A program made the position numbers and the translations under genes. Positions 41,073 to 60,414 of a stretch of DNA of 64,000 nt are shown here, piece after piece. The stretch lies in assembly GCA_019218415.1 (NCBI GenBank), contig JAHUUL010000003.1, positions 124,001 to 188,000 of the forward strand. Direction: 5' to 3'. The notes beneath the pieces are model-generated. The model searched no databases and had not been told where the DNA came from. It worked only from the letters and a program-made list of their open reading frames with translations. The stretch comes from Dermabacteraceae bacterium TAE3-ERU27. GTDB taxonomy: Bacteria; Actinomycetota; Actinomycetes; Actinomycetales; Dermabacteraceae. Within the stretch, counting starts at the first letter, position 1, and each line of letters starts with the position of its first letter.

Positions 41073-41765
41073 CTACTTTGTCTGAGGGGCGGGTGTATTG
41101 AGACGATCCACGTATTCTTGGCCGCTTAACTCCGCTATCCTCCGCATCAGGGTTTCTGTCAGCTCCCTGCGGCGCACGGATTTAGGTTTTCCGGGCGCTA
41201 CCTCGGAGGGAAAGATCGGCTCCCCGAAACGAATCGTGAACGGGTGGCGCAGGGGATGCTTGCTGCCGGAGGGCCAGAAGTGCTGCGTCCCGCGCAGACC
41301 CACGGGGATGATGGGGGCGTCGGCCTCAAACGCCAGCCAGGCGGCCCCGCCGCGCCCCTTATAAAGGCGGCCGTCGCGGGAACGGGTGCCCTCCGGATAG
41401 ATGCCGAAAGCCTCGCCGCGGCGCAGGTACTTCAGCGCGACCTCGAGTGAGCCCTGTGCGGAATGTAGGGTCCCCCTATCCACGGGAATTGCTCCGGCGG
41501 CGGTGAAAAATAGCCTCTGCACAAGATTGCTTAGCCCCCCGTCGTGCCAATAGGTGGACTTGACCAGAAAATGGATGCGGCGCGGGGTCAGGATCGGCAA
41601 AACTGCGCTGTCGGCGTTAGCCAGGTGATTCGCGGCGATGATCACGGCACCCTCGCGCGGAATGTTCTCCAGGCCGCTAACGCGCGGGCTCCAGAAACCG
41701 TAAAGCACCGGGACCAGGAGCCGGCGCACGGAGTCGTAGAACAGGCGGCTAGCTAATTCGCGCAT
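41073..41765 (-). CDS. 1-acyl-sn-glycerol-3-phosphate acyltransferase (PlsC family)
   Basis: About 230 residues from ATG 41765, with AAGGAA nine bases upstream; the earlier GTG at 41822 is less likely. Acyltransferase block I NHLANAD (HX4D) near 45, block III YPEGTRSRDG near 127. It acylates lysophosphatidic acid in phospholipid synthesis at the inner membrane face. It is divergent from the Gfo/Idh gene at 41899. Confidence 0.9.
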   Translation of the reverse strand: MRELASRLFYDSVRRLLVPVLYGFWSPRVSGLENIPREGAVIIAANHLANADSAVLPILTPRRIHFLVKSTYWHDGGLSNLVQRLFFTAAGAIPVDRGTLHSAQGSLEVALKYLRRGEAFGIYPEGTRSRDGRLYKGRGGAAWLAFEADAPIIPVGLRGTQHFWPSGSKHPLRHPFTIRFGEPIFPSEVAPGKPKSVRRRELTETLMRRIAELSGQEYVDRLNTPAPQTK

Positions 41766-41898
41766 CCTCTGCGGTTCCTTCGCTGCTGGGAATGACTGTC
41801 GGTCAAGCCAACGATAGTGCACGTCGGCCCCCTTGGAACTGGTGCGAGGCGCGGCGCGCTACGATTTCCCCAACACACTTTCTCTCTGGAGGTTCTTC

Positions 41899-43272
41899 AT
41901 GTCTGCCCCCCTGAAGGTAGCGGTCATCGGCCTGGGCGCAATGGCGCAGTCGGTGCACATCCCAACCATCCGCAGGCGCTGGGACCTGTTCGAGCTGTCC
42001 GCGCTGGTGGACATCTCGCAGCGGCGTCGCAATGATGTGCGGGCGCTGACCGGCATCCCCGAGGAACACACATACGAAAGCGTGGCCGACCTGATGCGGG
42101 CGGTCTCCGCGCGGGAAGTGGCGGTGGATGCCGCCGTAATCGCCACCGACGGGCTGCGTGCCGACGACGTGCTGGCGCTGCTCAAGCGCGCCATCCCGGT
42201 GCTGGTAGAGCCGCCGCTGGCCTACAGCAAGCAGGAACTGAAGAAGATCGCCGGATTCGAAAAAATGCTCGGCCGGCCGCTGGTGATGACCGCGTACGCA
42301 CAGCTTTACGACGCCGGGCTGGATAAGCTCACCGACGCCGTGGCCGGCAGCGATGCCCGCCTGATCGAATACGAAACCATCATGCCCTCTACGGGACCGC
42401 TATTTAAGCCGCACTGCGTTACCGCGTCGGCTTACGACGTAGACGTAGAACTGCGCAACGCGCGCCGCGAAGCGTTCGAGGCCGAGCTGAACAACGGAGC
42501 CGGAGCCGCCTCCACGCAGCGAGATCGCGACCTGTACGTGAAAGGCCTGCTGACCGGTTTCACCCAGCAGGTGCTAACTCTGGAAACCGCCTACGGCAAG
42601 CTGGAAAAGATCGACTATCTGCGCCAGTGGCCCGAGGGCGTCATGCCGGGCTCGCTGGAACTGCTGGGACGGCTAGAAAACGGTGCCCAGGTGCGTCTGA
42701 CCTGGCACTACCTGCCTTTCTTCCCCGAATACCGGGAAACCATCCGCGTTATCTCCTCGCGCAAGCTCGCGGAGCTTTCCCTCTACGCCCCCTCCCTGGG
42801 CGATAGGAGCGCGAAGCTCACCGTACGGGAAAAGGACGGGGCTAGCGCCGTCAGCCAAAACGGGTACGAAGACACGCGCGGCTGTGCAGACGCCATGTGG
42901 GACGCTTTCCACCGCATGGCGGTGAACCTGGAACTCCCCCTCGCCGGGGTCGCGGAGGCGCAGCGAGAACTGGCCTTGGCGCGCGATCTGCTCGAGCGCT
43001 ACGCGAGCGCCGAGGGGCGGGAACTAGAACCTGCTCCCGTGGTGGAAACGGAAGAAGCGCCGACGGAAGAAGACGCGGCAAAGGAAGAGCAGGAAGGGGC
43101 GGCCTCGGAAAAACCCGCGGAAGCGGCCGAGGAAAGCGCGGCACCCGCCGTCCCGGCAGACCCCGCAGAGGAGGAGCTGGACGCCGCGGTCAGGCAGGAA
43201 ATGCTTGCGGACGATGCCGAGGTGGACGATGCCGAGGTGGGCAAGGACGAAACCGCCCCCAAACAGGACTGA
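41899..43272 (+). CDS. Gfo/Idh/MocA-family protein lacking catalytic residues, with acidic C-terminal tail
   Basis: 457 residues from ATG 41899, CTGGAGG seven bases upstream. The Rossmann motif VIGLGAMAQ is at 9-17. The family EKP motif that carries the catalytic Lys reads EPP (104-106). At the place of the active-site HxxD motif the sequence is GFTQQVLTLET, so His and Asp are missing. The last 85 residues or so are Glu/Ala-rich and acidic (ETEEAPTEEDAAKEEQEG) and look disordered. It probably binds a dinucleotide without the usual hydride chemistry. A strong terminator separates it from nrdHIE. Confidence 0.8.
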   Translation: MSAPLKVAVIGLGAMAQSVHIPTIRRRWDLFELSALVDISQRRRNDVRALTGIPEEHTYESVADLMRAVSAREVAVDAAVIATDGLRADDVLALLKRAIPVLVEPPLAYSKQELKKIAGFEKMLGRPLVMTAYAQLYDAGLDKLTDAVAGSDARLIEYETIMPSTGPLFKPHCVTASAYDVDVELRNARREAFEAELNNGAGAASTQRDRDLYVKGLLTGFTQQVLTLETAYGKLEKIDYLRQWPEGVMPGSLELLGRLENGAQVRLTWHYLPFFPEYRETIRVISSRKLAELSLYAPSLGDRSAKLTVREKDGASAVSQNGYEDTRGCADAMWDAFHRMAVNLELPLAGVAEAQRELALARDLLERYASAEGRELEPAPVVETEEAPTEEDAAKEEQEGAASEKPAEAAEESAAPAVPADPAEEELDAAVRQEMLADDAEVDDAEVGKDETAPKQD

Positions 43273-43319
43273 GAATCGCGCTCCAGCGCAAGACTGAACA
43301 AGTCACAAAAATTTTTTCG

Positions 43320-43363
43320 CCCGCCCCGCAGCCGACTATGCACAGGCTGCGGGGCGGGTTTTT
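43320..43363 (+). terminator. Strong Rho-independent terminator after the Gfo/Idh gene
   Basis: A 14-pair stem CCCGCCCCGCAGCC / GGCTGCGGGGCGGG with an 11-base loop, then TTTTT. It makes nrdHIE an independent transcription unit. The 43364-43578 stretch has only the NrdR-like boxes and promoter. Confidence 0.95.
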
Positions 43364-43456
43364 CGTTTCCTCCACAGGGTTTCTCCCGGTCAAAGGCGGA
43401 GTGTCCCCAGAGTTCACAGAAGAATCCACAGGCTATGCACATAACATCTGTGTAAT

Positions 43457-43504
43457 TCCGTACATCTAGTGGTGGTGCACAGCCGTGGCCACAAGGTGTA
43501 GTGT
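43457..43504 (+). promoter_or_regulatory. Pair of NrdR-like boxes before nrdH
   Basis: CCACAAGGTGTAGTGT (43489-43504) matches the NrdR consensus ACACWATATATWGTGT at 12 of 16; TCCGTACATCTAGTGG (43457-43472) matches at 10 of 16. The starts are 32 bp apart, about three helical turns, as NrdR sites require. NrdR is the ATP/dATP-sensing repressor of ribonucleotide reductase operons; its gene is not in the window. Confidence 0.65.
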
Positions 43505-43578
43505 TATCGACGTTGGTCCTCCACAAGGGCCAAAAGGAAAATTCCCCCTGATCCTCACCGTGGAAAGGCACTACCGCC

Positions 43579-43830
43579 ATGGAAATCACCGTGTACTCCA
43601 AGCCGATGTGCGTACAGTGCGATGCCACCAAGCGTGCGCTGAACAAGGCCGGCCTCGACTACACCGTCGTTGATCTGACCGAGGATGCCGAGGCGCTCGC
43701 CAAGGTGAAGTCCCTCGGCTACATGGCCGCCCCGGTCGTGATCACCGGAAACGATCACTGGTCGGGCTTCCGCCCCGATAAGATCAAGGCCCTCACCCGC
43801 AGCGTTGAGCGCATGGCGGCAGCGGTCTGA
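43579..43830 (+). CDS. nrdH: Glutaredoxin-like protein NrdH
   Basis: 83 residues. Redox motif C11-VQ-C14 and the C-terminal WSGFRPDKI characteristic of NrdH. It reduces the NrdE active-site disulphide, using thioredoxin reductase (or mycoredoxin systems) as electron source. First gene of the nrdHIE operon, 75 bp after the nearest NrdR-like box, with GAAAGG upstream of its ATG. Confidence 0.95.
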   Translation: MEITVYSKPMCVQCDATKRALNKAGLDYTVVDLTEDAEALAKVKSLGYMAAPVVITGNDHWSGFRPDKIKALTRSVERMAAAV

Positions 43831-43865
43831 TTGGTTTTCGCGGCGCGCTAAGGAGCTAACGGCTG

Positions 43866-44264
43866 ATGGGCAGCATCGTCTATTTCTCGTCGGTTTCCGG
43901 TAACACCCACCGCTTCGTGGAGAAGCTGGGATTGCCCGCGCAGCGCATCCCCCTCTACCCCAAGCAGGAGATGCTGCGGGTGGAGGAGGAATACGTCCTC
44001 ATAGTCCCCACCTACGGGGGCGGCAGCGAACGCGGTGCCGTCCCCAAACAGGTAATCAAGTTCCTCAACGATGAGCACAACCGTTCCCTTATCCGGGGCG
44101 TAATCTCGGCCGGGAACACCAACTTTGGCGAGGCCTACTGCAAGGCGGGGGACATCATCTCCGCCAAGTGTCGGGTCCCGCACCTATACAAGTTCGAACT
44201 GCTCGGCACCCCTGGTGACGTGCAGAAGGTCCACGACGGATTGGAAGAATTTTGGCGAAACTGA
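43866..44264 (+). CDS. nrdI: Flavodoxin-like NrdI
   Basis: 132 residues. FMN-binding [11 protein letters not shown] at the N-terminus, [17 protein letters not shown] in the middle and [15 protein letters not shown] near 80-95. NrdI supplies oxidant for assembly of the dimanganese-tyrosyl radical cofactor of NrdF. AAGGAG lies ten bases before the ATG. Overlaps nrdE by 13 bp. Confidence 0.95.
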
Positions 44265-46402
44265 CCGAAATGCCGGGGCACGATCACCAGCGCAAACTGG
44301 ATTACCACGCCCTGAACGCGATGCTTAACCTCTACGGCGAGGACGGCAAGATCCAGTTCGATAAGGATCGCCTGGCGGCGCGGGAATACTTCCTGCAGCA
44401 CGTCAACCAAAACACCGTTTTCTTCCACACCCTCGAAGAAAAACTCGATTACCTGATCGAAAACAAGTACTACGAGGAGCACGTCTTCGCAAAGTACGAG
44501 TTCGAGTTCATCAAGCGTCTTTTCCAGCGGGCATACGCGAAGAAGTTCCGCTTCCCCACCTTCCTGGGGGCCTTCAAGTACTACACCTCGTACACGCTCA
44601 AGACCTTCGACGGTAAGCGTTACCTGGAGCGTTTCGAGGATCGCGTCTGCGCAGTGGCGCTCACCCTGGCCGACGGCGATACCGCCCTGGCCGAACGCCT
44701 CGTAGACGAGATCGTAGATGGCCGTTTCCAGCCCGCCACCCCCACCTTCCTGAACGCGGGCAAAGCGCAGCGCGGCGAACTGGTTTCCTGCTTCCTGCTG
44801 CGCGTGGAAGACAACATGGAATCCATCGGGCGCGGCATTAACTCCGCCCTGCAGCTTTCCAAGCGTGGCGGCGGTGTGGCGCTGCTGCTGAGCAACCTGC
44901 GCGAGTACGGTGCCCCGATCAAGCAGATTGAGAACCAGTCCAGCGGCGTTATTCCGGTTATGAAGCTGCTCGAGGACAGCTTCAGCTACGCGAACCAGCT
45001 GGGCGCGCGCCAGGGTGCGGGCGCCGTTTATCTGCACGCCCACCACCCGGACATCCTGCGCTTCCTGGATACCAAGCGCGAGAATGCGGACGAGAAGATC
45101 CGCATTAAGACGCTTTCGCTGGGCGTGGTGATTCCCGACATCACGTTCGAACTGGCGAAGAACAACGAACCGATGTACCTGTTCTCCCCGTACGACGTGG
45201 AGCGCGTCTACGGCAAGCCGTTCGCGGATATCAACGTCAGCGAGCGTTACCGCGAGATGGTGGACGATCCGCGCATCTCCAAGAAGAAGATTCGTGCGCG
45301 CGACTTCTTCCAGGTGCTGGCCGAGATCCAGTTCGAGTCGGGCTACCCCTACATCATGTTCGAGGACACCGTAAACCGGGCCAACCCGATCCCCGGTAAG
45401 GTGACGCACTCGAACCTGTGCTCGGAGATCCTGCAGATCGCCACCGCGAGCGAGATGAACGTGGATCTTTCCTACAAGGAGCTGGGCCGCGATATCTCCT
45501 GCAACCTGGGTTCGCTAAACATCGCCAAGGCGATGGACTCCCCGGACTTCGCAAACACCATCGAAACGGCCATTCGCGCCCTCACCAGCGTGTCGGATCA
45601 TTCCGATATCGAGAGCGTGCCGACCATCGCGAACGGCAACCGTAAATCGCACGCCATCGGCCTGGGGCAGATGAACCTGCACGGTTACCTGGCGCGGGAA
45701 AGCATCTTCTACGGCAGCGAAGAAGCCCTGGACTTCACCAACATGTACTTCTATGCGGTGGTGTACCAGTGCATCAAGGCGTCCTGCGCGATTGCCAAGG
45801 AACGCGGCGAAACCTTCGCTGACTTCAAGGAATCCGACTACGGCACCGGCGTCTACTTCGATAAGTACATCGACGGGGAATGGCTGCCGCAGACGGAGCG
45901 CGTGAAGGAAATATTCGCGAATTCCTCCGTGCACATCCCGACCCAGGATGATTGGCGCGCGCTCAAGGCCGACGTCATGCGATACGGCATGTACAACGCC
46001 TACCTGCAGGCGGTGCCGCCCACCGGTTCGATCTCTTACATCAACAACTCGACCTCCTCCATCCATCCGATCGTTTCCAAGATCGAGATTCGTAAAGAGG
46101 GCAAGATCGGGCGCGTCTACTACCCGGCGCCGTTCATGACGAACGACAACCTGGAGTACTACCAGGACGCTTACGAGATCGGCTACGAGAAGATCATCGA
46201 CACCTACGCGGTGGCTACCCAGCACGTGGACCAGGGCCTTTCACTGACCCTGTTCTTCCCCGACACGGCCACCACGCGCGATGTGAACCGGGCGCAGATC
46301 TACGCCTGGCGCAAGGGCATCAAGACGCTCTACTACATCCGACTCCGTCAAATGGCTATCTCCGGTACGGAGGTAGAGGGCTGCGTTAGCTGCATGCTGT
46401 AG
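44252..46402 (+). CDS. nrdE: Class Ib ribonucleoside-diphosphate reductase alpha subunit
   Basis: 716 residues from TTG 44252, which overlaps the nrdI end, a common start arrangement. [42 protein letters not shown] and NLCSEI (active-site Cys) are typical. The C-terminal redox pair is C711-VS-C714, two residues from the end. No N-terminal ATP-cone, as expected for class Ib. It reduces NDPs aerobically with NrdF, encoded about 10.8 kb away rather than adjacent. Confidence 0.96.
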
Positions 46403-47005: not shown

Positions 47006-48025
47006 ATGACAACTGCATCGGTAATTTCTGGGACCTCTAAGCGATTGCTCTGGGTGGACGCCTTGCGGGGTGTTGCAATTTGTTTAGTTGTTTTTCATCA
47101 TTCTTTCATAGTGGTGCCTAGTTTTTCGACATTTTTAACTTCGGTTGACGAGGCTGTTATAGCACTCCGTATGCCGCTTTTGTTTTTTGTTTCCGGTTGC
47201 ATGGTTCCGGGGGCCATTAGGCGTGGCATTAAACATTATTTTGACTCCAGGGTCAGGCATGTCCTTTGGCCCTACCTTGGTTGGCAGGCTCAGTATATAG
47301 TCATGGTTGGATCCTTGGCGGGATTGGCTAATATAGTGTACTGGGGGACTTTGAGTACACTGTGGTTCTTATTTTTCCTGCTTGTATATTATGCTTTGGC
47401 GCCGCTATATAAGTATTTTGGGTGGTTTGTTATGGCGCTTATTGGCCTGGGGTTGTGGGCGGTTATTCCTGCTGAGGCTCTGCCTGATTTACTTGGTCCG
47501 TATAGGTTTACTCCCAATCAGATGGCCTTCTATTCCTTCTTCTTTTATTTGGGGGCTGGAACCTTTAAGAGGATCCGGGACTATAGGCCTAGCAAAAGTG
47601 AAATTCTATTTGCTGGCACGGTCGTTCTCTGTTGCATGGTTTTGGCCTCTAGGGGGGTGCTTAAGGGAACTTTTGAGTTCCTTTTATTGGGGTTTTTTGG
47701 TGGGGTAGCAATGTTAATTATTTTTGCGTCGCTACCAGAAAATCGTACGATGAAACTTTTTGCTTGGATTGGGAGGCGATCCGTCGTGTTGTATGTGCTC
47801 CACATCCCAATATTTATTTACACTAAGGAATTTGTTATCGAGGCGAACATCCCACAAACTCCGACTCTCTGGTTCGCTTCTTTGTTAGCGACCTATTTGA
47901 TCTGTTTTGCTGCGGGTGCTTTGCGTTACAAAATGCCGTTCTCGATCCTGTTCGAGATGCCCAGGTCCTGGGCGCCCTGGAACTGGAAGCGCGACGAAGC
48001 TAAGCGTGATCTAGCTGCCGCCTGA
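47006..48025 (+). CDS. Membrane acyltransferase family 3 protein
   Basis: 339 residues with about ten membrane segments. The family start motif RLLWVDALRGVAICLVVFHH (Arg, and His-His at 31-32) is intact, as is the LWPYLGWQAQYI loop. Such proteins transfer acetyl or succinyl groups onto cell-surface sugars. The codon and base use is markedly AT-rich compared with neighbouring nrd genes, except the last 30 codons. Together with the broken copy upstream it looks like a duplicated, transferred gene. Confidence 0.85.
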   Translation: MTTASVISGTSKRLLWVDALRGVAICLVVFHHSFIVVPSFSTFLTSVDEAVIALRMPLLFFVSGCMVPGAIRRGIKHYFDSRVRHVLWPYLGWQAQYIVMVGSLAGLANIVYWGTLSTLWFLFFLLVYYALAPLYKYFGWFVMALIGLGLWAVIPAEALPDLLGPYRFTPNQMAFYSFFFYLGAGTFKRIRDYRPSKSEILFAGTVVLCCMVLASRGVLKGTFEFLLLGFFGGVAMLIIFASLPENRTMKLFAWIGRRSVVLYVLHIPIFIYTKEFVIEANIPQTPTLWFASLLATYLICFAAGALRYKMPFSILFEMPRSWAPWNWKRDEAKRDLAAA

Positions 48026-48122: not shown

Positions 48123-48170
48123 CCACAATATCTGGAAACTACGGCGTGTCGTAACCACTAGATATAGTGT
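48123..48170 (+). promoter_or_regulatory. Pair of NrdR-like boxes before nrdD
   Basis: CCACTAGATATAGTGT (48155-48170) matches the NrdR consensus at 14 of 16 positions; CCACAATATCTGGAAA (48123-48138) at 10 of 16. Spacing between starts is 32 bp, identical to the pair before nrdH. Confidence 0.75.
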
Positions 48171-50846: not shown

Positions 50847-50945
50847 AGAGACATGCGCGGCTCGCGCAATAGACTGAGGAAGAGGCCTACGGTGCCCGGG
50901 ATTGCCGACTGGGCGGGCCTCGCGAGCAAAGGAGGCCGGAAGAAC

Positions 50946-52115
50946 ATGGCGGATCTGCGCATAGGGGTTATCGGTTACGGCGCGCGTGGCGGTCTTGCCA
51001 AGCACGCCCACAAGCCGGGGGAGGGCAGCGCCGTGGTGGCGGTCTGCGACCCGACCGAGAGAGGGCTGGCCGACGCGCGCGAAGTATTCGGCGATAGCGC
51101 CGCCTACGTGGGGGAACTAGACGAACTGCTCGCGCTGGGACTCGACGCGGTGATGATCCTCGCGCCCGACTACGCCCATGCAGGCATCGCCCGCCGCACC
51201 CTCGCCGCGGGCCTGCCCACGTTCTGCGAGAAGCCGCTGGCCATCAGCCTGGAGGACGCTGACGATCTGCTCGATCTGGCCAAGCGGCACCGGGCCCGGC
51301 TTTACGTCGGCCACAACATGCGCCACATGCCGGTGGTGCGGCAGATGAAACGCCTGATCGATGAGGGGCGGATCGGCAGGGTGCGCGCTATCTGGTGCCG
51401 CCACTTCGTCGGTGCTGGGGGAGACTTCTACTTCAAGGATTGGCACGCCGAACGCGAGCGCGTAAACACCCTGCTGCTGCAAAAGGGGGCGCACGACATA
51501 GATGTGATCCACTGGCTCGCGGGCGGCTACACCCGCCGCGTGTCAGGCGTTGGCAAGCTGGCCGTTTACGGAGACATCACCGATCGCCGCGACAACAGCG
51601 ACCGCCGCATGTGGGACTGGTACAGCGCTGACAACTGGCCGCCCACCGCGCAAAAGGAACTAAACCCGGTGGTGGATGTTGAAGATATCTCCATGCTGCA
51701 AATGGAGCTGGATAACGGGGTGCTCGCCTCCTACCAGCAGTGTCACTTCACCCCCGACTACTGGCGCAACTACACGATCATCGGTGACGCCGGGCGGATA
51801 GAAAACATGGGAGATAACGGCGGTGACTTCATCTACCTGTGGGACAGCCGCCGGGGCGGAGCGGGAAAGCCGGACGCGGTGGAGGTGATCGCCCGCGAGA
51901 GCGGCGGTCACGGCGGGGCCGATCCGAGCCTGGTAGCGGAGTTCCTGCGGTTTGCGCGCGCGGGTGGGCACACCGAGGTGTCGGCGGTTGCTGCACGGGA
52001 GGCGGTGGCCACCGGCTGCGTCGGCGCGGATTCGCTGCGCGCGGGCGGCGGCATGCTACCCGTGCCCCCGCTGGCCGCTGAGGTGCGACAATACTTCGAT
52101 GCGGGACAGTGCTAG
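50946..52115 (+). CDS. Gfo/Idh/MocA-family oxidoreductase, canonical active site
   Basis: 389 residues from ATG 50946, with AAAGGAGG upstream. Rossmann VIGYGARGG at 8-16, EKP at 95-97 (catalytic Lys-96), HDID at 183-186. The C-terminal beta-sheet domain includes MWDWYSADNWPPTAQKELNP. An NAD(P)-dependent sugar or polyol oxidoreductase by family; substrate unknown. It follows nrdG by 99 bp without an obvious terminator, so co-transcription with nrdDG is possible. It is a candidate for dehydrogenation of a sialic acid derivative, but nothing in the sequence proves this. Confidence 0.88.
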   Translation: MADLRIGVIGYGARGGLAKHAHKPGEGSAVVAVCDPTERGLADAREVFGDSAAYVGELDELLALGLDAVMILAPDYAHAGIARRTLAAGLPTFCEKPLAISLEDADDLLDLAKRHRARLYVGHNMRHMPVVRQMKRLIDEGRIGRVRAIWCRHFVGAGGDFYFKDWHAERERVNTLLLQKGAHDIDVIHWLAGGYTRRVSGVGKLAVYGDITDRRDNSDRRMWDWYSADNWPPTAQKELNPVVDVEDISMLQMELDNGVLASYQQCHFTPDYWRNYTIIGDAGRIENMGDNGGDFIYLWDSRRGGAGKPDAVEVIARESGGHGGADPSLVAEFLRFARAGGHTEVSAVAAREAVATGCVGADSLRAGGGMLPVPPLAAEVRQYFDAGQC

Positions 52116-58186: not shown

Positions 58187-59194
58187 ATGTCTACCGTGCG
58201 CGTCGGCATGATCGGTGCCGGCTACATTTCCGCAGAACACGCCCGCGCCTGGCGCGAACTTGGCGTGGAACTGACCATCCACGCGGTGGCGGGAGCCAAG
58301 GAACTGGCTCACGACCACGGGGCTGAGGTGGCCGATACCCTGGATGAACTGCTTGACCGCAGCGATCTGGTGGATGTCATCACCCCCACCGCAACCCACG
58401 CGGAACTGGTCACCACCGCTCTCGAAGCGGGCAAGGACGTAGTCTGCGAGAAGCCGCTCACCGCCGATCTTACCTCCGCGCACGCGCTGCGCGAGACCGC
58501 GCAGCGCACCGGACGCCAGCTTTTCCCCGGCCAGGTGGTGCGTTACGACCCGGCCTACCACGCGGTGCACAAGGCAATCGGTCTGCGCCGCCTCGGTGAC
58601 CTCGCCGTGCTGCGCTACGAGCGCAGCGGGCTGGCTCCGAAGAGCGCCTGGTACGCCGACGAAAGCACCTCCGGCGGCATCGTCATGGACCTGATGATTC
58701 ACGACATCGACCAGGCGATCTGGAACGCCGGTCCCGTCACCTCGGTGCACGCCACCCGGCGCGGGCTGGGCAGCGACGAGCACAGCCAGATCCAGGCTGC
58801 GCACGTCGTGCTGACCCACGAATCCGGCACCGTCAGCCACGTGCGTGGCCTGTGGGGAGCCGAGGGCACCACGATTCGCAGCGCGTTCAGCCTGTACGGC
58901 ACGGGCGGCGTGATCGAACACGATTCGCGCGATCACTCCGGCGTGCGGCTGGACTTTGCGGCGCTCGAAAACACGCGCCGCAGCGGCGGTTACGTGCCTT
59001 CCGACCGTCTCACCGAGTCCCCGTTCCTGACCCAGCTGCGAGACGTTTACCTAGCCGTCACCCAGGGGCGCGAGGTGCGCACCAGCCTTGACGAGGGCAT
59101 CTATAGCGTCGAGGTTTGCCTGGCCGCTATCGAGTCGCTGCGCAGCGGTAATGCCGTGCGCCTTGCCGACATGCTGACCGAGGAGGAAGCATGA
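58187..59194 (+). CDS. Gfo/Idh/MocA-family oxidoreductase, canonical active site
   Basis: 335 residues; its ATG follows the nrdF stop with no gap, so it is co-translated with nrdF. Rossmann MIGAGYISAEH at 8-18, EKP at 88-90 (Lys-89), HDID at 172-175. Substrate unknown; the family oxidises or reduces sugars and inositols with NAD(P). Overlaps the next Gfo/Idh gene by four bases. Confidence 0.88.
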   Translation: MSTVRVGMIGAGYISAEHARAWRELGVELTIHAVAGAKELAHDHGAEVADTLDELLDRSDLVDVITPTATHAELVTTALEAGKDVVCEKPLTADLTSAHALRETAQRTGRQLFPGQVVRYDPAYHAVHKAIGLRRLGDLAVLRYERSGLAPKSAWYADESTSGGIVMDLMIHDIDQAIWNAGPVTSVHATRRGLGSDEHSQIQAAHVVLTHESGTVSHVRGLWGAEGTTIRSAFSLYGTGGVIEHDSRDHSGVRLDFAALENTRRSGGYVPSDRLTESPFLTQLRDVYLAVTQGREVRTSLDEGIYSVEVCLAAIESLRSGNAVRLADMLTEEEA

Positions 59195-60414
59195 AAATCG
59201 CGCTCATGTCGCTAGCCCATCCCAGGGCGATCGATCACGCGGAACGCCTGCTGGGCCGCCCCGACGTGGAACTCTTGCTGGCGGATCCGCTGGAAGAGGG
59301 CGACGCGGTAGGGGAGATGCGAGGCTACGAACTGGCCGAGCATTTCGAGGTTGAGCTGGTCGGCTCCTACGACGAAATGTTTGCCTGGGGCCCTGACGCC
59401 GTGATCATCTGCGAGAAGCCGAGCCGCCGCGCGGCAGCCGTGAAAATGGCTGCCGAACACGGCGTGCACGTGCTGGTCGAACAGCCCCTCGCGCTGAGTG
59501 TTAGCGAAGCGCGCGAGGCCGTGCAGGCCTGCGCCGAGGCAGGCGTGAAACTACAGGTGGTGGCCCCGCTCAGGTTCTCGCGCGCGGTAGAGGCGGCCCG
59601 AAAGGCCATCGCCTCCGGCGCGGTAGGCGAGGTTCTCGGCATTACCGCCACGCACACCTCGAAGCTGCCGCTCACCGAACGCGCCTGGTTTGGCGAAGCC
59701 GCCGAGGGCGGCTGCATCGGCGAGCACCTGGCTCCGGTAATCGATGTGGCCTCGCTGCTGACGGGCCGCGACCTGGCGGCGGTCGGCGCAGACGTTTACG
59801 TCACCACCAACCGGATCGTGCACGGTGCCTCCGACGGCCTGGACGTGCCCACCGGTGCGCTGGTCGATGTGGTGCCGCAGGATGGCCCGATTACGGCCGT
59901 CGACTGCAGCTGGACCATTCCGGACACGGCGCCGACGGACCGCGAACTCACCGTGCAGGTGATGGGCAGCGAGGGCACGATTGACGTGGAGCCCTATGCG
60001 CAGCACCTGGCAGGTTTCGAGCGGGCCAGCGCCAAGAGCTTCTGGATTCCGTTCGGCACCGACTTCCTGGCGGCCGCGTTGGACGAGTTCCTGGGCCTCG
60101 TGGACGGCACCGTTAGCGAGGGACGCGCGGGCGCAGAGATCGCCCTGCAGGGGGCCCGCATCGCGGAGACCGCGCTCTACAGCGCCACCACTCCCGGCAT
60201 CGAACAGGTTTTGGCCGATGACGCCCCGCGTGGAGGAAACGAGGAAGAGACCGTTCCGGCGGAAGATTCCATGCTCGAAGCGGAAACCGAAGCCGAAGCG
60301 GACAGCCTTTCTCCGGAAGATGCCGAGGCATCGGCAGAGGAGAACGAGGCAGACTCCACTATGGCAGAGCGGCCTGAAACTGACGAAGAGGACGCCGACG
60401 TTCGCGAGGACTAA
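59191..60414 (+). CDS. Gfo/Idh/MocA-family protein lacking catalytic residues, with acidic C-terminal tail
   Basis: 407 residues, ATGA overlap with the preceding gene. The EKP motif is replaced by EQP (97-99) and the HDID position by PVID (182-185), so the catalytic Lys and His are gone. The N-terminal strand lacks the glycine-rich dinucleotide loop (MKIALMSLAHPRAID). The last 75 residues are acidic and low-complexity (EAETEAEADSLSPEDAEASA). The same combination occurs in the protein at 41899. A regulatory or partner-binding role for the canonical gene just upstream is an inference. Confidence 0.8.
   Translation: MKIALMSLAHPRAIDHAERLLGRPDVELLLADPLEEGDAVGEMRGYELAEHFEVELVGSYDEMFAWGPDAVIICEKPSRRAAAVKMAAEHGVHVLVEQPLALSVSEAREAVQACAEAGVKLQVVAPLRFSRAVEAARKAIASGAVGEVLGITATHTSKLPLTERAWFGEAAEGGCIGEHLAPVIDVASLLTGRDLAAVGADVYVTTNRIVHGASDGLDVPTGALVDVVPQDGPITAVDCSWTIPDTAPTDRELTVQVMGSEGTIDVEPYAQHLAGFERASAKSFWIPFGTDFLAAALDEFLGLVDGTVSEGRAGAEIALQGARIAETALYSATTPGIEQVLADDAPRGGNEEETVPAEDSMLEAETEAEADSLSPEDAEASAEENEADSTMAERPETDEEDADVRED

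Follow-up and report, generated by a model that had tools for sequence, protein, structure and literature searches.

A Gfo/Idh protein without its catalytic residues as a probable RifT-type subunit in a genus of the Dermabacteraceae

Why would a Gfo/Idh protein that has lost its catalytic residues be kept in translational coupling with an intact relative, and is it of one kind with a second such protein encoded nearby? Both questions are raised by the window studied here, the whole stretch of 64,000 nucleotides analysed from Dermabacteraceae bacterium TAE3-ERU27, whose 2.0 Mb genome codes for five PF01408 proteins, the fifth of them outside the window. The host appears to belong to a small-genome genus within the Dermabacteraceae, compared here with one congener, the sister species G001, so that the genus is represented by two species in all. 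The N-terminal domains of the proteins P0003, P0004 and P0005 score 49.1, 83.2 and 55.5 bits, respectively, against PF01408, all above the curated cut-off of 24, and P0005 further matches PF22725 with 45.5 bits.

On the forward strand, P0004 (58187..59194) is a predicted intact enzyme that has the catalytic lysine, aspartate and histidine (K89, D168 and H172) as well as the glycine-rich cofactor motif, and its stop codon overlaps the start of P0005 (59191..60414, forward strand; 407 aa) by 4 nt at 59191-59194. P0005 has Q/E/P in the three catalytic columns: where its relatives have EKP and DHxVH, it has EQP at residues 97-99, with glutamine at codon 98 (59482..59484), and EHLAP at 178-182 (59722..59736), wherein glutamate and proline replace the catalytic aspartate and histidine. 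P0003 (41899..43272, also on the forward strand; 457 aa) has P/T/Q, with EPP at 104-106 and Gln223 in the histidine column. The original prediction had noted the loss of the EKP lysine and active-site histidine in both proteins and an acidic C-terminal tail on each. It had also noted the coupling of the 59191 protein to a canonical member, and the retention of EKP and HDID in the two untailed members, P0004 and the intact protein following nrdDG (50853..52115, forward strand). All of these observations hold, Pro182 and Gln223 being the residues that stand in for the histidine. The missing residues bear on catalysis rather than on membership of the fold, since such members are known in the PDB (RifT). 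Indeed, the P0005 model has the full two-domain Gfo/Idh fold (best Z of 35.6 against 6nor_C, 2.4 A over 320 residues), and that of P0003 also has the two-domain fold (Z of 29.2 against 3m2t_A, 3.1 A, 313 residues).

The tails span about 75-79 residues in P0003 and about 65-72 in P0005 (from about residue 343; 60217..60411, forward strand). Aspartate and glutamate make up 33% and 43% of the last 60 residues, respectively, lysine and arginine 7% and 3%, and AlphaFold pLDDT values mostly below 50 predict disorder in both. A census with a simple gene caller found acidic tails in 2 of 55 gene calls in the window, namely P0003 and P0005, and among 34 calls from the sister species only in their two orthologues; hence, a genus-wide composition effect is unsupported. 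In the alignment, the P0005 tail is absent from orthologues outside the genus, and between the two species it is 44% identical and differs in length.

The coupling itself is widespread. In other Dermabacteraceae, in Micrococcales and in other Actinomycetes, a P0004-type gene precedes a P0005-type gene, and the two commonly overlap by 4 nt (ATGA); the pair and its overlap are conserved in most order- and class-level relatives. The intact pairs of Actinomycetes (L014-L041, L123-L151, L167-L196) resemble P0004/P0005 in gene order, in the subfamilies involved and commonly in the overlap; they differ in that both subunits have the Lys/Asp/His set, the second has no acidic tail, and the genes often lie beside those for sugar transport or regulators. 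Among non-redundant P0005-type subunits, 83 of 93 have the three residues, including the lysine, and 10 lack them, with Q, Y or P at the lysine position. These ten dead subunits come from the two species of this genus, from RifT and, in seven cases, from one other actinobacterial family (f53), and among the Micrococcales examined the catalytic changes are limited to this genus. Beyond the sister species, a contig scan with P0005 recovered a single remote match.

Neighbors of the intact pairs include sugar ABC importers (L077, L155) and a ROK or LacI regulator (L155, L199). Given these, and the relatives of the 50853 protein that also lie beside pairs, the ancestral role may have been the oxidation of a sugar or cyclitol; likewise, the gene neighborhood of intact relatives makes a sugar or cyclitol the probable substrate of P0004/P0005. 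Against the inositol 2-dehydrogenase model TIGR04380, P0004 (133.7 bits) and P0005 (58.6 bits) fall below the equivalog cut-off of 355 bits. Four genomes (L155, L156, L157, L159) have three consecutive Gfo/Idh genes, a relative of the 50853 protein being encoded immediately before the pair; in the window, the 50853-52115 gene and the pair are about 6 kb apart, each following nrd genes.

A structural counterpart of this pair is provided by RifS and RifT. The best PDB match of P0004 is RifS (154.7 bits; next, 89.8), and the P0004 family profile scores 290.7 bits against RifS versus 175.3 for the next chain, thereby placing P0004 in the RifS subfamily. The P0005 family profile detects RifT with 118.7 bits over 256 residues, the longer RifS (136.6) and 2glx (123.5) scoring slightly higher, and in both trees RifT is nested with starred support in the subfamily of P0005, which is thus RifT's subfamily, while RifS falls among the P0004 type. 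The best 50 structural matches listed for the P0005 model include 8w9s_A and not 8w9s_B. RifS and RifT were solved together in four PDB entries (8w9s, 9vcm, 9vcn, 9vco), with eight chains of each. At the catalytic motifs RifT has EYP and AAAPY, and its Rossmann domain is missing the initial portion; our reading of the alignment predicts that RifT is itself non-catalytic. Deletion of rifT in Amycolatopsis mediterranei leads to 8-deoxy products and complementation restores the wild-type profile (PMC7563148, where RifT is called a putative dehydrogenase); our search of the literature on Gfo/Idh pseudoenzymes or heteromers returned nothing else of relevance. Taken together, the profiles, trees, joint PDB entries, residues and deletion suggest that the intact partner depends on a subunit that has no catalytic residues.

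Thus, the heteromeric complex hinted at in the original prediction would, by analogy, have a real precedent in a pair of the RifS/RifT type. The two systems are alike in their paired Gfo/Idh genes, in a P0004 of RifS type, in a P0005 from the subfamily of RifT, and in a second subunit without the catalytic Lys/Asp/His. They differ in that the losses are separate on the tree, the columns reading Q/E/P in P0005 and Y/A/Y in RifT; in the full-length Rossmann domain of P0005; in its acidic tail; and in the presence of nrdF, instead of a polyketide cluster, beside P0004/P0005. Indeed, no ansamycin polyketide synthase genes lie beside P0005, its neighbors being nrdF and a PF04226 protein.

The dead subunits of f53 adjoin an EKP-bearing partner with the 4-nt overlap. 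Downstream of the pair in G365, an f53 genome, come a P450 gene and the gene for a very large polyketide synthase, which begins with an AMP-ligase module; as rifT is placed upstream of the polyketide synthase genes in PMC7563148, this locus fits a rifamycin-type cluster. Three f53 loci (L213, L214, L215) code for RifT-like subunits of 251-283 aa that carry EPP and have a shortened N-terminal half; the gene of each overlaps that of an intact RifS-like partner by 4 nt. In a tree with eight more f53 rows, the RifT group (100/98) lies beside the intact L177 and L178, and the P0005 of this genus falls among intact Micrococcales subunits. Forcing all dead subunits together is rejected with this enlarged set (AU p=0.0008) and not with the smaller one (AU p=0.13), and the same holds for P0005 being a transferred RifT or a RifT orthologue proper. 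On these alignments the two dead groups seem to have arisen independently, with some doubt arising from the long P0005 branch and from H12R and EQPLAL, which are common to both.

These observations lead us to favor, as probable if short of firm, the proposal that P0004 and P0005 form a hetero-oligomeric Gfo/Idh oxidoreductase of the RifS/RifT type, in which P0004 is the active subunit and P0005 the non-catalytic one. Briefly, P0004 would carry out the NAD(P)-dependent hydride transfer, while P0005 would bind P0004 to complete the oligomer and help shape or gate the substrate site; the disordered acidic tail would most likely affect solubility or electrostatic contacts. In Gfo/Idh enzymes the interface is usually formed by the C-terminal sheet; among the 62 positions of P0005 that are nearly invariant in its intact relatives, we looked for preferential retention of C-terminal (interface) residues and found none. 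P0005 is best read, as far as the sequences indicate, as having reached a RifT-like non-catalytic state by its own loss, with a new acidic tail. Since the pair in this genus no longer lies beside sugar importers and has nrdF upstream, its role there may have changed. In evolutionary terms, loss of the active site from the second member of this widespread, coupled Gfo/Idh pair appears to have occurred at least two times on the tree, in the RifT group and in a small-genome genus without an adjacent polyketide cluster. With its intact, dead and truncated forms, the pair offers a natural series on what the second subunit does without catalysis.

The alternative that survives best, unlikely as we hold it to be, is that P0005 is still an enzyme that relies on other residues, or that catalyzes another reaction while retaining the fold. 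It draws on the full Rossmann-type fold predicted at high confidence, on the retention of D32 and some pocket positions, and on strong purifying selection: a comparison of the two species gives 97% identity for the P0005 core, dS of 0.29, dN of 0.015 and dN/dS of about 0.05, which argues that the protein is not decaying. However, there are 62 positions at which the 83 intact relatives hardly vary, and P0005 retains only 36 of them; the lysine, aspartate and histidine (K98, D178, H182) are lost together, H12, H80 and N155 have changed too, and the alignment offers no replacement lysine or histidine at the catalytic columns.

Rather less probable is that P0005 works independently of P0004 and serves as a regulator or scaffold, possibly of ribonucleotide reductase, an idea prompted by the genomic setting. 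The gene upstream of P0004 (57206..58186, forward strand) is one that we take to be nrdF, coding for the class Ib ribonucleotide reductase beta subunit, from its sequence as recognized on reading and from the conserved nrd gene order. The P0004 ATG directly follows its stop codon (TAAATG), and nrdF, P0004 and P0005 abut in the same order in both species of the genus. A 15-bp hairpin 3' of P0005 (60440..60472, forward strand), read from the sequence, without a clear T run and not flagged in a terminator scan of the window, is the probable end of this unit. The gene of the other tailed pseudoenzyme, P0003, is followed by nrdH at 30 of 30 loci in the family. Yet the link between P0004 and P0005 is far older and wider than that with nrdF, which is seen in this genus only, the pair and nrdF not being found together in other Dermabacteraceae. 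Further, a strong terminator, a hairpin with a T run read from the sequence at 43320..43363 (forward strand), separates P0003 from nrdH, so that P0003 is unlikely to be co-transcribed with nrdH, nrdI and nrdE, and no NrdR-like box with up to 3 mismatches occurs at the P0003, P0004 or P0005 genes. In a bolder version, class Ib ribonucleotide reductase would have acquired acidic-tailed Gfo/Idh pseudoenzymes on two separate occasions, P0003 at nrdHIE throughout the Dermabacteraceae and P0005, together with P0004, in this genus's nrdF unit; they would act on the reductase as assembly partners or as sensors of nucleotides or redox state, and not in sugar oxidation. This strikes us as more doubtful again. 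Across the whole window, allowing up to 3 mismatches, one NrdR-box-like site occurs where 0.09 would be expected; it has 2 mismatches and lies just before nrdD (48155-48170). Between nrdE and nrdD the window also has an Acyl_transf_3 gene (47006-48025), pointing to an insertion or a loss, as the corresponding gap in the sister species is just about 200 bp.

That P0005 is a decaying relic of a second enzyme, as its lost catalytic residues, the small genome and its long branch before the split of the two species might suggest, is highly improbable: its dN/dS is close to that of P0004 (dS 0.25, dN 0.007, dN/dS about 0.03), the frame is intact and all substitutions are shared in both species, and pseudogene decay is rejected on the dN/dS.

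There remains the relation between the two tailed proteins, which the original prediction had taken, from their parallel loss, for one distinct, possibly regulatory, subgroup. The parallel loss is real; the subgroup is not. In a maximum-likelihood tree built with the three catalytic columns removed, the check that had been proposed, P0003 and its orthologues form one clade (100/100) and P0005 falls in a different, strongly supported Gfo/Idh subfamily, so that the tailed proteins make two clades with separate histories. Constraining them to one costs 175 log-likelihood units, and the AU test rules this out (p=4e-121). That both are without the lysine and histidine, are tailed and, in this genus, have class Ib ribonucleotide reductase genes as neighbors leaves the single-subgroup reading practically no credence against this rejection and against the distribution of the traits, the lysine loss and tail being family-wide in P0003 and genus-only in P0005. 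On these sequences it is refuted as common descent; a function shared by convergence does not fall with it.

P0003 instead represents a separate, family-wide "EPP" pseudoenzyme, going by its sequence. EPP is found in 30 of 30 Dermabacteraceae orthologues examined (L042-L071), all with 62-263 residues of acidic composition past the core, while relatives outside the family have EKP with HD and short or no extensions. The histidine is retained in most of the family's genomes, with alanine in L109 and L110 and glutamine in this genus; given the family-wide EPP and tail and the patchy histidine, the lysine change and the tail appear to be old, the histidine having been lost later and apparently more than once. 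This subfamily resembles P0005 in its Gfo/Idh fold, lost EKP lysine and acidic C-terminal tail; it differs in belonging to another subfamily, derived from EKP/HD relatives (L111-L121), in having EPP in all members examined, in being unpaired and in its fixed place upstream of nrdH. Throughout the Dermabacteraceae the orthologue has a divergent plsC-like gene on one side and nrdH-nrdI-nrdE on the other (41073-46402 in the window; L042-L071, L162-L164). In two family genomes it was matched in two pieces (G004:C1:1092557-1093845 and G029:C1:2784138-2785404), which suggests a frameshift or an assembly error.
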